From: Shinella zoogloeoides
GTDB taxonomy: Bacteria > Pseudomonadota > Alphaproteobacteria > Rhizobiales > Rhizobiaceae
DNA: 64,000 bases
Direction of reading: 5' to 3'
Assembly: GCF_033705735.1 (NCBI RefSeq)
Contig: NZ_CP131131.1
Location: 124,001 to 188,000 of the forward strand
Each line of letters begins with the position of its first letter. The first letter of the stretch is position 1. The position numbers and the translations under genes were made by a program. The notes under the pieces were generated by a model that was not told where the DNA came from, made no database searches, and was given only the letters and a program-made list of their open reading frames with translations. Below, one piece after another: positions 3,698-24,889 of this stretch.

Positions 3698-4893
3698 CGC
3701 CGATCCACGAACCGCTTTCCGAAGAGGCCGCCGCGCGCCTCGTCCAGGTCGCCGCTCTCTCGAAGACGCCCCTCGTCATTCGCGGCGGCGGCACGCGCAG
3801 CCTGCATCCGGCACCTGAAGGCGCGGATGTGCTCTCGACGCGCGGCCTTTCCGGCATCGTCGCCTACAACCCGGCGGAAATGACCATGACGGCCCGCGCC
3901 GGCACGCCGCTGGAGGTGGTGGAAGCCGCCCTTGCCGAAAAGCGCCAGATGCTCGCCTTCGAGCCGAACGACCTGCGCGGCGTGCTCGGCACGTCGGGCC
4001 TGCCGACCATCGGCGGCGTCTTCGCCACCAATGCCTCCGGCCCGCGCCGCTTTACGGCCGGCGCGGCGCGCGACAGCCTGCTCGGCGTGCGCTTCGTCAA
4101 CGGCAAAGGTGAGATCGTCAAAGCGGGCGGGCGGGTGATGAAGAACGTCACCGGCCTCGATCTCGTGAAGTTGCTCGCCGGCTCGCACGGTTCGCTGGCG
4201 CTTATGACGGAGGTCACCTTCCGGCTTCTGCCGGTGCCGGAAACCGCCGTCACGCTCGTCGTCTCGAACCTCAACGATGCGGAAGCCGCCGCCGCCATGG
4301 CGACGGCCATGTCGATGTCCGTCGAGGTATCGGGCGCCGCCCACCTTCCTGAAAGCGTGCGCGGCCGCATTGCCGGCGGCGCGCTGCCGGATGGCGCCGC
4401 CACCGTGCTGCGCCTCGAAGGGCTTGCCGCCTCGGTCGCTGTCCGCGCGGAAAAGCTTGCGGCCGCCATGGCCGGCTTCGGTGCCGTCACGCGGCTGGAG
4501 GAAGAGGCCTCGCGCCGCCTCTGGCGCGAGATCCGCGACGGCGCGCCCTATGCCGACGGCACGCCGCGTCCGCTCTGGCGCGTCTCCGTCGCGCCGCTCG
4601 CCGGCCAGCAGCTCGTCGCCGCGCTCCGCCTCGAAGCCGGCGTCGACGCCTTCTACGACTGGCAGGGCGGCCTCGTCTGGCTGCGCATGGAGGCCGATCC
4701 CGAGGCGGAACTCCTGCGCCGCTACGTCAAGGCCGTCGGCGGCGGCCACGCGACGCTCCTGCGCGCGCGGCCGGAGGCGCTGGCGGCAACGGAGGCGTTC
4801 CAGCCGCAGGCCGAGGCGGTCGCGATGCTTCAGGCGCGGGTAAAGGCGAGCTTCGATCCGGACGGGCTGTTCCGGTCGCGGATGGTGGGGTGA
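3694..4893 (+). CDS. glcE: glycolate oxidase FAD-binding subunit GlcE
   Basis: 399 residues. Second flavin-binding subunit of the glycolate oxidase complex. It has a PCMH-like FAD fold with PLVIRGGGTRSL near the N-terminus and the block PTIGGVFATNASGPRRF; the C-terminal half is more divergent, as in other GlcE proteins. The ATG lies in the ATGA overlap with glcD. It is followed by a long perfect palindrome before glcF, so the third subunit is separated by 174 bases from the first two. Confidence 0.92.
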   Translation: MTPIHEPLSEEAAARLVQVAALSKTPLVIRGGGTRSLHPAPEGADVLSTRGLSGIVAYNPAEMTMTARAGTPLEVVEAALAEKRQMLAFEPNDLRGVLGTSGLPTIGGVFATNASGPRRFTAGAARDSLLGVRFVNGKGEIVKAGGRVMKNVTGLDLVKLLAGSHGSLALMTEVTFRLLPVPETAVTLVVSNLNDAEAAAAMATAMSMSVEVSGAAHLPESVRGRIAGGALPDGAATVLRLEGLAASVAVRAEKLAAAMAGFGAVTRLEEEASRRLWREIRDGAPYADGTPRPLWRVSVAPLAGQQLVAALRLEAGVDAFYDWQGGLVWLRMEADPEAELLRRYVKAVGGGHATLLRARPEALAATEAFQPQAEAVAMLQARVKASFDPDGLFRSRMVG

Positions 4894-10452: not shown

Positions 10453-12105
10453 ATGAGCGAAAAGCAGAAAAAGCCCCAGAAGCTGAAAGCCCGCCTGCCG
10501 CGCGGCTTCGTCGACCGCGACGCCGCGGACATCCGCGCCGTGAACGAGATGACGGCGAAGATCCGCGAGGTTTACGAGCATTACGGCTTCGACCCGGTCG
10601 AAACGCCGCTCTTCGAATATACCGACGCGCTCGGCAAGTTCCTGCCCGACAGCGACCGGCCGAACGAGGGCGTCTTCTCGCTGCAGGACGACGACGACCA
10701 GTGGATGAGCCTTCGCTATGACCTGACGGCGCCGCTCGCCCGCCATGTCGCGGAGAATTTCAACGAGATCCAGCTACCCTACCGCACCTATCGCGCGGGC
10801 TACGTCTTCCGCAACGAGAAGCCGGGTCCGGGCCGCTTCCGCCAGTTCATGCAGTTCGATGCCGATACGGTCGGCGCGGCCGGCGTGCAGGCCGATGCCG
10901 AGATGTGCATGATGATGTCGGACACGATGGAAGCGCTCGGCATCACCCGCGGCGACTACGTCATCCGCGTCAACAACCGCAAGGTTCTCGACGGCGTGCT
11001 GGAGGCTGCGTCCGTTCCTGAATTTAAACGAGTTGAAACACTTAGATCTCTGGATAAATTTGATAAATTTGGTTTTCAAGGCGTCAAGTTACTTTTGACA
11101 GTGGGGAGACGGGACGAAAGCGGTGATTTTACAAAAGGCGTTGGGTTAGATGAAGCTCAAGCAGACGTGTTATTGTCGATTTTCGCTCCTGGAAATGCTT
11201 ATAGATGCAGTTACACTAAAGAAGATGGTACAATTGGTTACTTTGAAGGAAGTCCGGATCAGATCATAACCAATTGGGATGATGTTCTTCGTGGTCACAA
11301 TGATATAGGACTTGCACAGTTTTTCGGAAAACCATCTCAAAACCCTAGCTTGATGGCGTTGTTAAACGCAAATGTAGCTTGCCGTGGTAATCCCGTCGGG
11401 GCCCAAGGGATCGGCGAACTTCTTACCATGCTTCGCATATTCCAAGATGCTGGCTATGGTGAAGACCGAATCAGGATCGACCCGTCGGTCGTGCGCGGCC
11501 TCGAATATTACACAGGCCCGGTCTTCGAGGCCGAATTGCAGTTCGCCGTCACCAACGAGAAGGGCGAGAAGGTCGTCTTCGGCTCGGTCGGCGGCGGCGG
11601 CCGTTACGATGGCCTCGTCTCCCGCTTCATGGGCCAGCCGGTGCCGGCGACGGGCTTCTCCATCGGCGTCTCGCGCCTGATGACGGCGCTGAAGAACCTC
11701 GGCAAGCTCGGTCAGGAGGAGGTGGTCGCGCCCGTCCTCGTCACCGTCATGGACGGCGACATCGAGAGCATGGGCCGCTACCAGCGCTTCACGCAGGAGC
11801 TGCGCGCCGCCGGCATCCGCGCCGAGATGTATCAGGGCAACTGGAAGAAGTTCGGCAACCAGCTCAAATATGCCGACCGCCGCGGCGCACCGATCGCCAT
11901 CATCCAGGGCGGCGACGAGCGCGCGGAAGGCCTCGTGCAGATCAAGGACCTGATCGAGGGCAAGCGCCTTTCCGGCGAGATCGAGGACAACATCGCCTGG
12001 CGCGAAGCGCGCGTCGCGCAGGTTTCCGTACCGGAGGCCGATCTGGTTGCGAAGGTCCGCGAAATCCTCGACGCGCAGGCCGAAGACCGGGCGCGGCAGG
12101 GGTGA
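10453..12105 (+). CDS. hisS: histidyl-tRNA synthetase with low-GC mosaic segment
   Basis: 550 residues. Charges tRNA-His with histidine. Class II motif 2 region ([20 protein letters not shown], about residues 112-131), the histidine-specific block [12 protein letters not shown] (about 347-358) and motif 3 (GGGGRYDG...[14 protein letters not shown]) are intact, and the C-terminal anticodon-binding domain follows. The segment encoding residues about 187-343, between motif 2 and the histidine-specific block, has much lower GC and rare codons (TTA, AGA, ATA). The protein is longer than the roughly 500 residues I recall for rhizobial HisRS, and the extra length falls in this segment. The frame is continuous, so the gene is probably functional. 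hisZ and hisG follow. Confidence 0.93.
11010..11480 (+). other. low-GC mosaic block inside hisS
   Basis: GC counted over 11041-11340 is about 40%, against about 65% just upstream (10921-10980). Within the block AT-ending codons dominate, including TTA, AGA and ATA that are rare in the rest of the window; at both edges codon use returns to the genomic norm within about 10-20 codons. The encoded part keeps a recognisable HisRS stretch ([12 protein letters not shown]) and then about 90 residues unlike the rhizobial proteins I know. This looks like replacement by recombination with a low-GC relative; donor unknown. Confidence 0.85.
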
Positions 12106-12280: not shown

Positions 12281-13414
12281 ATGCCCCTGACGAACCTTCC
12301 CGCCTTCGCGCCCGATCTCGTCGCCGACCTCGAAGGGCTCGGCACGCAGCGCGTCGACACGCCGGTCATCCAGCCGGCCGAACCCTTCCTCGACATGGCG
12401 GGCGAGGACCTGCGCCGCCGCATCTTCATGACGGAGAGCGAGACCGGCAAGAGCCTGTGCCTCCGGCCGGAATTCACCATTCCCGTCTGCCTTCGCCACA
12501 TCGAGACGGCGACGGGCACGCCGCGGCGCTATTCCTATCTCGGCGAGGTCTTCCGCCAGCGCCGCGACGGCGCGAACGAATTCTACCAGGCCGGCATCGA
12601 GGATCTCGGCGAGCCGGATATCGCCCGCGCCGACGCGCGCATCGTGCGTGATGCGCTCCACGTCATCGGCAACCGGCTTCCCGACATGGCGCTGTCCGTG
12701 ACGCTCGGCGACCAGGGAATTTTCGAGGCGGTCGTCGCCGCCTGCGGCCTGCCGGCCGGCTGGCAGAAGCGCCTCATCCACGCCTTCGGCAATCCGGCGC
12801 AATTGCAGAAGCTGATCGCCGACCTGTCCGATCCCGCCCCGTCCGGCGTCTTCGGCCCGGAGGTCGAGCGCCTTGCCCGCCTCGGCATCCTCGACGACGA
12901 GGCGAAGCTGATCGCCCATATCGACGCGACGATGGAGGCGACCGGCTATTCCACCAATGCCAGCCGCGGCCCCACCGACATCGCCCGCCGCCTGCGCGAG
13001 AAGCGCGAACTGGCGAGTACGCGGCTCGACAGCCGCACGCTGGCGCTGCTCAAGGAATTCCTGGCGCTGGAGCTGAGCCTTGCCGACGCGCCGCATGCGC
13101 TCGCCGCCTTCGCGGAAAAGGCCCGCCTTTCGCTCGGCGCGGCGCTGGAGCGCTTCGACGCCCGCGTTAAGGCGCTGCGCGAAGCAGGCGTCGATCCGGC
13201 GACGATCATCTATCGCGCTGCCTTCGGCCGTCCGCTCGATTATTATACCGGCCTCGTCTTCGAGATCACGCCGGCCGGCGAGACATCGGTGCTCGTCGGC
13301 GGCGGCCGGTTCGACCGGCTGCTGACGCTGCTCGGCGCGAAGGAACGCATCCCGGCCGTCGGCTTCTCGCTCTGGCTCGACCGTATCGCAAGCGCCGGGG
13401 GAGCCGCCGCATGA
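12281..13414 (+). CDS. hisZ: ATP phosphoribosyltransferase regulatory subunit HisZ
   Basis: 377 residues. A HisRS catalytic-core paralogue without the anticodon domain, which binds the short HisG and is needed for its activity in the first step of histidine synthesis. Class II core traces are visible ([47 protein letters not shown]). The ATG at 12281 has a GGAG ribosome site upstream. The stop overlaps the hisG start in ATGA, which couples the two subunits at translation. Confidence 0.94.
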
Positions 13415-14106
13415 CCATCACCATCGGTCTTCCCTCCAAGGGCCGCATGAAGGAGGACAGCTCGGCCGTCCTCGCCCGCGCCGGCTTCACCGTCGCCGCC
13501 GTCGGCAACGACCGCTCCTATCGCGGCCGTGTCGAGGGGCGCGACGATATCGAGATCGCCTTCCTCTCTGCTTCCGAGATCTCCCGCGAGATCGCCAACG
13601 GCACCGTCGATTTCGGCGTGACCGGCGAGGATCTCGTGCGCGAGAGACTGGCGGAGGCCGATGCCCGCGTCGAGTTCTGCGCCCGCCTCGGCTTCGGCCA
13701 TGCCGATGTCGTGGTCGCCGTGCCGGAGATCTGGCTCGACGTCGACACCATGGCCGATCTTGGCGACGTCGCCACGGATTTTCGCGCCCGCCACGGCCGG
13801 CGCCTGACCATCGCCACGAAATACTGGCGGCTGACGCAGCAGTTCTTCTCGGGCAATCACGGCATCCAGCTCTACCGCATCGTCGAAAGTCTCGGCGCCA
13901 CGGAAGGCGCGCCGGCCTCCGGCTCGGCCGACATCATCGTCGACATCACCTCGACCGGCTCGACGCTTGTCGCCAACCACCTGAAGATCCTCTCCGACGG
14001 CGTGATCCTCAAATCGGAAGCCTGCCTCGTGCGTGCGCGCAAGCCGGAGCACGAGGGCGATGCGGTGGTGGCGGAGATCATCGAGCGGGTGCGCGGGGCG
14101 CTGTAG
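13411..14106 (+). CDS. hisG: ATP phosphoribosyltransferase catalytic subunit HisG, short form
   Basis: 231 residues, the short form that lacks the C-terminal regulatory domain and depends on HisZ. It condenses ATP and PRPP to phosphoribosyl-ATP, the committed step of histidine synthesis. The N-terminal block [13 protein letters not shown] and the PRPP-binding block [20 protein letters not shown] (about residues 172-191) are present. It overlaps hisZ by four bases. Confidence 0.95.
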
Positions 14107-14116
14107 GGGCTGGATT

Positions 14117-14297
14117 GCCCCTCATCCCGCTGCCGCGACCTTCTCCCCGCAGGCGGGGAGAAGGGGTGTGCCGCACCGTTTTCCGTCCCATCGCAGGCAA
14201 GCTTGACGGAAACACGCCGAGGGGCGGGAAACCGGTCCCACACGTCTCCTTCGCCCCGCTTGCGGGGAGAAGGTGGCCGGCAGGCCGGATGAGGGGC
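14117..14297. repeat. palindromic intergenic repeat, family B, copy 1
   Basis: Terminal inverted ends CCCCTCATCC / GGATGAGGGG enclose two smaller hairpins, each with CTTCTCCCCGC and GCGGGGAGAAG, and a variable centre. The same plan recurs at 24491-24630 and 39601-39755. It fills most of the gap between hisG and the transferase gene. Style is RIME/BIME-like; the class name is inferred. Confidence 0.85.
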
Positions 14298-14392
14298 TGG
14301 CACCCTCACCCTTCGCAAATTTCCCGCCACGCCACCCTGACATCGCCCGGCGGCCTGCCCTATCTATGAACTCCCACCCGCAAGGAGTTCCC

Positions 14393-23490: not shown

Positions 23491-24471
23491 ATGACGGTAT
23501 TTCACAGGAACGAGACGAAACAGCCGCTGCCGGAGCACCTGCGCGGCGGCGTCATCGCCATCGGCAATTTCGACGGCGTGCATCGTGGCCACCAGGCGGT
23601 GCTGCAGCGGGCGCTCGACATCGCGGCCGAGCGCGGTGTTCCGGCGCTGGTCCTCACCTTCGAGCCTCATCCGCGCACCGTCTTCCGCCCCGAGCATCCC
23701 GTCTTCCGCCTGACGCCTGCACCGCTGAAGGCGCGCATTCTCGAAGGCATGGGTTTTTCCGCCGTCATCGAATATCCCTTCGACCGCGGTTTCTCGGAAA
23801 TCTCGGCCCATGACTTCATCCGTGGCATCCTTCTCGACTGGCTGCACGCCTCCGAGGTCGTCACCGGCTTCGATTTCCATTTCGGCAAGGGCCGGGAAGG
23901 CGGGCCCGCCTTCCTGATGGCCGCCGGCGAGGAGAACGGTTTCGGCGTCACGCTGGTCGATGCCTTCCGCGACGAGAACGCTTCGGTCATCTCCTCCAGC
24001 TTCATCCGCGCGCTGCTCGGCAAAGGGCAGGTCGCGGAAGCGGCCGGCCAGCTCGGCTACCGCTACACGGTCGAGGCCGAGGTGATCGGCGGCAAGCAAC
24101 TCGGCCGCACGCTGGGCTACCCCACCGCCAACATGCAGCTTCCGCCCGAAGTGGAGCTGCGCAACGGCATCTATGCCGTGCGCTTCCGCCGCCCCGACGG
24201 TAGCCTCCACGACGGCGTCGCCAGCTACGGCCGCCGCCCGACCGTCGATGCCAACGGCGCGCCGCTGCTCGAAACCTTCCTCTTCGACTTCTCCGGCGAT
24301 CTCTATGGCGAAGTCTCCGCCGTCTCCTTCTTCGGCCATCTGCGCGACGAGCTGAAATTCGACGGCCTCGATGCGCTCGTCGTGCAGATGAAGCGCGACG
24401 AGGAGGAGGCGCGGGCGCTGCTGTCCGGCGTGCGGCCGCTCGGGCCCATCGACCGGCGGCTCTGTTTCTGA
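23491..24471 (+). CDS. ribF: bifunctional riboflavin kinase / FAD synthetase
   Basis: 326 residues. Makes FMN from riboflavin and FAD from FMN. The N-terminal adenylyltransferase domain shows IAIGNFDGVHRGHQAVL and the C-terminal kinase domain shows GRTLGYPTANMQLP with the later NGIYAVR block. Length and domain order match the bacterial RibF family. It probably shares a transcript with the HAD gene just upstream. Confidence 0.95.
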   Translation: MTVFHRNETKQPLPEHLRGGVIAIGNFDGVHRGHQAVLQRALDIAAERGVPALVLTFEPHPRTVFRPEHPVFRLTPAPLKARILEGMGFSAVIEYPFDRGFSEISAHDFIRGILLDWLHASEVVTGFDFHFGKGREGGPAFLMAAGEENGFGVTLVDAFRDENASVISSSFIRALLGKGQVAEAAGQLGYRYTVEAEVIGGKQLGRTLGYPTANMQLPPEVELRNGIYAVRFRRPDGSLHDGVASYGRRPTVDANGAPLLETFLFDFSGDLYGEVSAVSFFGHLRDELKFDGLDALVVQMKRDEEEARALLSGVRPLGPIDRRLCF

Positions 24472-24490
24472 GGTTTGTGGGCTTGGCGTT

Positions 24491-24630
24491 GCCCCTCACC
24501 CTAACCCTCTCCCCGCAAGCGGGGAGAGGGGACTAGCCCAACGCAACGATGAAGATTTGGGGAAATCGGCGCGGCATATCCCTTCGCCCCGCTTGCGGGG
24601 AGAAGGTGGCCGGCAGGCCGGATGAGGGGC
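24491..24630. repeat. palindromic intergenic repeat, family B, copy 2
   Basis: GCCCCTCA and TGAGGGGC ends enclose two hairpins with CTCCCCGC(AA)GCGGGGAG cores and a centre of about 50 bases. The right arm (TTCGCCCCGCTTGCGGGGAG onward) is nearly identical to the right arm of the copy at 14117-14297, while the left arm differs. It sits between ribF and ileS; the following 24631-24889 shows no convincing gene or promoter. Confidence 0.85.
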
Positions 24631-24889
24631 AGCCGGAAGCGGCCCCCCAAATATACGCCCGCCGTCTTTTCAAAACGCCCAAAAGGCCGTAAGACCGCGC
24701 GCATGATGCTCCACCGGCCGACCATCGCCCTGCGAATTAGTGGCCCGGCCTTCCGCGCGCTCTGAGCGAGGCCGGAAGGTCCGGGATTTCGGGCGTTTTT
24801 GACAGCGCCCCCGCCGTCATCGCCGGTGCAGATGACAGATATTCCCCCGCATGCGCGAAAACCCGCGCGACGAGACGATAGCCATATCC

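Follow-up and report, generated by a model that had tools for sequence, protein, structure and literature searches.

Based on comparisons of histidyl-tRNA synthetase (HisRS) genes, we report that in Shinella zoogloeoides the ordinary insertion domain (ID) of this essential enzyme has been replaced as one unit of about 470 bp by a foreign ID allele, a conclusion of which we are close to certain. We also conclude, with high confidence, that the ID is multi-allelic in Hyphomicrobiales, where one widespread short form exists next to many long forms. The data give good support to the replacement, by recombination, of a domain that has many alleles, and the account that in our view best explains the data as a whole, namely replacement, a multi-allelic ID and escape from an agent that binds the ID, has about an even chance of being correct. 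The gene lies in a stretch of 64,000 nucleotides from genome G000 (the window), in which the following features are considered, with G061 denoting another genome of the same species.

10453..12105, forward strand: hisS, histidyl-tRNA synthetase, 550 amino acids plus stop; this start was picked since the close protein P0002 begins MSEKQKK
10453..11006, forward strand: 5' flank of hisS, coding for the first part of the catalytic core; identity to G061 is 93-100% in each 60 bp; GC3 0.89
11007..11476, forward strand: replaced ID block, residues about 186-341, GC 0.436; the 3' edge is uncertain within 11449-11476
11185..11388, forward strand: distal variable ID tip, residues 245-312, predicted by AlphaFold2 as a hairpin plus extra helices
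11477..12102, forward strand: 3' flank with histidine-specific motif, motif 3 and anticodon-binding domain, near-identical to G061
12281..13414, forward strand: hisZ-like open reading frame, colinear with G061, named from gene order
13411..14106, forward strand: hisG-like open reading frame, colinear with G061

The names motif 2, histidine-specific motif and motif 3 are assignments that we assume to hold for hisS, and the open reading frame at 13411..14106 is presumably hisG, as judged from operon order; an ATP phosphoribosyltransferase regulatory subunit is annotated directly after hisS in three other records. The window HisRS matches PF13393 (1e-43) and PF03129 (8e-12), both above cut-offs, and its gene is the single hisS match in G000, with no second copy. 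An earlier note on this DNA had placed a low-GC block in frame within hisS, and its coordinates prove right: GC is 0.403 over 11041-11340 and 0.436 over 11007-11476, as compared to 0.643 over 10741-11006 and 0.655 in the 64-kb window, and the reading frame stays open across the block, yielding a protein of 550 residues. Expressed by domain, GC is 0.44 in the ID and 0.66 in the remainder of hisS, while GC3 amounts to 0.89 for residues 1-187, 0.34 for residues 188-343 and 0.90 for residues 344-550. Just one (start 11011) of 6,353 sliding 470-bp windows has a GC content below that of the block, and the 29 such windows with GC below 0.50 start at 10841-11121, so that all overlap the block, which is thus the AT-rich extreme of the 64 kb. 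The codons TTA, AGA and ATA, which the note had singled out, are indeed concentrated here, with 4, 3 and 3 occurrences in the 157 block codons vs none in the other 393 codons of hisS. With respect to an intein or homing-endonuclease insert, the block occupies the position of an ID that was already there, and a search with its variable part, 113 residues in the window HisRS, returned nothing from Pfam or PHROG at E ≤ 5.

The comparison with G061 captures the exchange within one species. Over its first 36 kb the window aligns colinearly with G061, at a nucleotide identity of 97.8-98.0%, and the G061 HisRS of 504 residues, 99.7% identical to the window protein in the flanks, has an ordinary ID of 115 residues where that of the window has 161. 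Within hisS the alignment ends at 11006, is patchy from 11449 and becomes essentially exact from about 11476; the break points lie in or beside conserved catalytic-core sequences on both sides of the block, and homologous recombination would be the natural mechanism of the replacement. As G061 is colinear except for the ID and one gap of about 190 bp, a single domain differs within the species, whereas the surrounding 36 kb does not. We note that this sole other gap, at 24470-24660, consists of GC-rich palindromic repeats, copies of which also match G061 near window positions 14117-14298. We also note that hisS differs from that of G061 by a dS of 0.20 in the 5' flank and 0.03 in the 3' flank, so the 3' side may also have been exchanged recently within the species.

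The excess of about 45 residues over rhizobial HisRS, which the earlier note had reported, proves right: among the 20 other genomes from the genus, 15 have a HisRS of 504 residues as opposed to 550 here, G061 being one of the 15. Inspection of hisS in close strains, which the same note had proposed, yielded the window's ID segment in none of these 20 genomes. Its suggestion of a homologous replacement from a low-GC relative, within an essential gene, stands as far as the replacement is concerned, with an ordinary ID between colinear flanks of about 97.8% identity in G061 and disagreeing histories of block and flanks (see below), but the low-GC relative as source is unproven: the donor was not found, and a scan of genome contigs returned Rhizobium sp. 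Root708 only. The present copy of the block looks recent, given that the GC of its tip and base is far below that of the flanks and that G061 lacks it.

We refer to the window's ID as allele B. A protein search with the block alone returned, among the best 120 of 656 matches, 17 other proteins with 58-90% identity over the whole block and, beyond those, nothing above 44% at comparable coverage. Among carriers with a name, the nearest is a Shinella sp.; the others are Rhizobium sp. Root708, Agrobacterium vitis and Rhizobium sp. PP-F2F-G36. Leaving out the truncated protein P0012, 17 B proteins were usable (the window and 16 others); the block and flank identity analysis left out 20 of the 120 proteins, P0012 among them, which were truncated or could not be parsed. 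Across 394 genomes of the family and 385 of the class, G000 was the only close carrier at high identity, with weak relatives of the block in G626, G448 and G746. The Root708 block has a GC3 of 0.55 vs 0.77-0.79 in its flanks, and is identical to that of the window in 87% of residues and 70% of bases. The two blocks differ by a dN of 0.115 and are saturated at synonymous sites, in part through their differing base compositions; neither is a recent copy of the other, and the module seems to be under constraint.

Block and flanks do not share one history. Among the B proteins, block identity is uncorrelated with flank identity (rho 0.09, 136 pairs), whereas N- and C-terminal flanks are correlated with each other (rho 0.71), and in 15 of 17 the nearest flank relative has another ID and is closer than any B carrier, the exceptions being P0013 and P0016. 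On a flank tree that sets the 17 carriers against 26 comparators, picked for being closest in the flanks, there are 16 label changes, each of which may be a gain or a loss, 13 of them forced by well-supported branches; B carriers as one clade are rejected on this tree with a p-AU of 3e-65. Block and flank identities and the flank tree thus disagree with a shared history, on which the note had proposed a comparison of trees. The block tree is weakly resolved and places carriers with Rhizobiaceae flanks near each other, where a single clade is not rejected (p 0.22), so that exchange may occur mostly within families. As a separate observation, the Roseobacter HisRS P0055 matches 99% of the block at 37% identity, which hints at long IDs outside Hyphomicrobiales.

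Allele B is one of many. We compared 112 hisS genes from Hyphomicrobiales, comprising all 21 available genomes of the genus, others taken from best-matching rows and Root708, a sample that leans towards IDs similar to that of the window. The 21 genus genomes alone hold five ID types, in 15, 3, 1, 1 and 1 genomes. When pairs with flanks at least 95% identical are considered, the variable ID parts fall below 40% identity in 83 of 216 (63 of 196 without the window and Root708), as opposed to 0 of 216 for control segments from the N-terminal part and the anticodon domain. The variable part ranges from 48 to 123 residues and reaches at least 70 in 41 of the 112 genes. Clustering at 40% identity and 80% coverage of the 308 sequences that could be parsed out of 343 proteins, with the P proteins originating from searches with two ID alleles (for the second, the best 8000 candidates), gives 69 types, 45 of them singletons: one large short type of 133 sequences plus many long types. 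Several long types have members whose flanks share only 64-77% identity, and the type of G350 and G411 occurs in two families, where identity is 61% in the flanks and 60% in the variable parts; this type includes the partial protein P0123, which lowers its smallest flank identity (0.45). Rhodobacterales HisRS has the short form in 6 of 6 genes, four from Paracoccus and two from Ruegeria. Whatever the ID, catalytic flanks are conserved and frames open. A hisS C-terminal match in G029 (C10:1030810-1031502) has an in-frame TAG.

The short form has a host-like composition, whereas the long forms mostly have depressed synonymous GC, and several of them recur with distant flanks. Taking IDs of over 120 residues as long (n=41) and the remainder as short (n=71), the median GC3 drop is 0.224 for long and 0.020 for short IDs (p 4e-8), and 32 of 41 long as well as 11 of 71 short IDs drop by more than 0.1; with 9 long forms lacking such a drop and 11 short forms showing it, composition gives no clean split. 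At four-fold sites, long forms have a median GC of 0.60 in the tip vs 0.92 in the flanks, as compared to 0.88 vs 0.93 for short forms, and hisS of the window is at 0.26 in the tip, 0.46 in the ID base and 0.94 in the flanks. Tip composition follows that of the flanks loosely in long forms (r 0.31) and more closely in short forms (r 0.67). We read this as short forms being mostly resident and long forms moving. For the short-form pair G001 and G007, dN/dS is 0.23 in the variable part vs 0.05-0.10 in the flanks, which also fits loose constraint or neutral exchange.

No element carrying the ID cassette was found, which counts against the escape reading. The B-specific part has no match in plasmids, phages or IMG/VR, and three other ID types have none in IMG/VR, one of them also none in plasmids, in searches that reach close relatives for viral contigs only. 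With the whole HisRS as query, 94 plasmid records match, six at 60-80% identity and 88 below 60%; nine of the 94 were inspected. The six belong to Shinella and Sinorhizobium, with replicon sizes of 2.0-4.6 Mb, and a 21.9-kb Cereibacter plasmid record carries a near-complete HisRS. The 18 matching phage records are all below 60% identity. In IMG/VR, four contigs (L184-L187) carry HisRS genes 50-64% identical to that of the window, which are either phage genes or host flanks.

Controls in another gene and another species behave differently. LeuRS in the 21 genus genomes has no comparable GC3 dip, the lowest GC3 over 80 codons being 0.70-0.88, and the lowest mean identity over 70-residue windows is 0.81 for LeuRS vs 0.64 for HisRS, with lowest pairs of 0.54 vs 0.29. 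The LeuRS proteins (L199-L219) have one locally divergent spot, in windows starting around columns 70-110, where the lowest pair of 0.54 is found. In E. coli the ID is at least 95% identical to that of K-12 in all 5,375 matching genomes of 5,426, using a search that needs about 85% identity and leaves 51 genomes unmatched; the N-terminal hisS part is also unmatched in 53 genomes. The 5' part of hisS is only 80-90% identical to K-12 in 49 of 5,373 matching E. coli genomes. In one of these, L231 (NZ_CM192843.1, ~3977-4450), the first 450 bp or so are divergent while the ID and most of hisS are normal, i.e. another mosaic hisS.

Structure prediction provides a layout for the exchanged part. In the AlphaFold2 model of the window HisRS, the ID reaches a pLDDT of 81-95 per ten residues (181-340), with 58 at 221-230, and parts of the core are below 50. 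The best fold matches listed are HisRS or HisRS-like, and TM-scores against solved HisRS, normalised by the query, are 0.35-0.49; because of these low scores and the weak core, only the ID layout is drawn from this model. Core helices at 190-200, 203-215, 234-244 and 314-332 have counterparts at 191-205, 207-219, 238-248 and 270-288 in the model of the ordinary HisRS P0034, and between the last two the ordinary protein has one short helix vs a hairpin and further helices in the window protein. The closest folds of the ordinary model are solved HisRS, with matches spanning the whole enzyme and not the tip alone. Of 310 parsed sequences, 307 have a variable part with a net negative charge, which would make it ill-suited to RNA contact; this is weak evidence, since acidity extends to the entire enzyme (median net charge of the flanks -7).

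The earlier note had further speculated that the swap could alter how HisRS reads the acceptor end of tRNA-His, an explanation prompted by the position of the ID between what we take to be motif 2 and the histidine-specific motif. This is very improbable and finds no support in the tRNA genes, as G061 has the ordinary ID, yet its tRNA-His is identical to that of G000 over 77 bases. U72 and A73 are common to all 29 tRNA-His genes read (28 by script, L063 by eye) in 29 of 30 genomes, the incomplete genome G411 giving none, whatever the ID. Position -1 is a T in 28 of the 29, G000 included, which therefore has no templated G-1, and across the 29 genomes positions -1, 72 and 73 do not co-vary with ID type. 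The single gene with an encoded G at -1, L060 (G348), keeps U72 and A73. According to the passages cited here, A73 and the missing G-1 are marks of this alphaproteobacterial clade, and tRNA-His identity in Caulobacter rests on A73, U72 and the anticodon (PMC3937112, PMC9976931).

The possibility of an assembly or contamination artefact has the composition break in its favour and nothing else, and we rejected it as practically negligible: the block keeps an open frame within a contig of 1.89 Mb, other assemblies have related blocks, those of Root708 and P0002 among them, and G000 has one hisS match. A real but old polymorphism, in which ID alleles predate the species and were mostly retained or re-sorted within families with little long-range transfer, agrees with the closeness of Rhizobiaceae-flank B blocks on the block tree (2 changes; one clade p 0.22). 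We regard it as unlikely, given the four-fold-site GC of 0.26 and 0.46 in tip and base of the window vs 0.94 in its flanks, the lack of the block in G061, and the G350/G411 type, which is spread over two families. The main and serious rival to escape is neutral exchange of equivalent modules, where any folded ID works, recombination between conserved flanks swaps IDs without benefit, and purifying selection within types keeps only the fold. Open frames and conserved catalytic flanks irrespective of the ID, core helices common to the ordinary and B forms in the models, and the fast-evolving variable part of the G001/G007 pair are all in line with it; moreover, swaps of the conserved flanks would be hard to see, so that the ID may merely look special. 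However, the 69 types in 308 sequences, the recurrence of long alleles in lineages with distant flanks, the replacement within one species and the contrast of host-like short forms with AT-rich long forms go beyond what drift would easily produce, though each is compatible with it. On balance we find neutral exchange less likely than not.

As driver of the diversity we prefer, tentatively and at somewhat less than even probability, diversifying selection by an ID-binding agent, because the alleles are many, the pairs of the same type that were tested look constrained, allele and flank histories are uncoupled, and flanks and tRNA are fixed. Of the note's two suggestions, it is thus the resistance-type explanation whose class is favoured. 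In such a scheme the ID would be a side module, acidic and largely helical, without a part in setting tRNA identity, and its distal tip may be the docking site for an agent that attacks or exploits HisRS, such as a phage protein, toxin or inhibitor. Uptake of a new ID would then allow the cell to escape the agent with aminoacylation kept, and rare ID forms would be favoured. The analysis yielded no attacker, no binding partner and no phenotype for the ID, which counts against escape, and a literature search returned nothing on HisRS-directed agents among the matches listed. Taken further, it is possible, and we would put it no higher, that a still undiscovered class of antagonists makes contact with HisRS at the ID, with a shared pool of interchangeable alleles taken up by short-tract recombination for escape.

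Many alleles, conserved borders, AT-richness and presumed diversifying selection are familiar from the target domains of HsdS and from O-antigen clusters, and the HisRS ID resembles these in all four respects, although hisS, unlike those loci, encodes an essential intracellular housekeeping enzyme with one match in the genome. Resistance to inhibitors can also be gained through a second synthetase copy, as for the mupirocin-resistant IleRS. The supposed benefit, escape from a synthetase-targeting agent, would be alike, but G000 has no extra hisS, and only a domain is exchanged while the catalytic flanks stay. Segmentally variable genes, in the cited account, are conserved genes in which a region of 70 residues or more is variable, with synthetases named and ProRS as example (PMC387263), and the window HisRS, with its variable part of 113 residues between conserved flanks, belongs here by this definition. 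The same account puts synthetase variability down to tRNA recognition and offers partner binding by the variable region as its authors' proposal; the tRNA data presented here do not bear out the former, and the recombinational allele swapping found here is not described for segmentally variable genes in the passages cited (PMC387263). HisRS of the alphaproteobacterial RRCH clade (Rhodobacteraceae, Rhizobiales, Caulobacterales and Hyphomonadaceae), as covered by the cited parts of PMC3937112 and PMC9976931, is the same enzyme with the same A73/U72 tRNA-His. Our literature search returned, among the matches listed, no report of a multi-allelic or swapped HisRS ID or of a mosaic hisS.

In conclusion, slow evolution as a single piece is what one expects of an essential synthetase, whereas one domain of HisRS can differ completely between genomes with the remaining enzyme more than 95% identical, even within a species. 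ID swapping also calls for caution when hisS is used in phylogeny and typing. If the escape reading is true, this would be an allele system like the immune-escape loci, located inside an essential translation enzyme. If selection drives the diversity, the ID would mark a point of attack on bacterial translation that we have not found described, for which the natural alleles would provide a test set.
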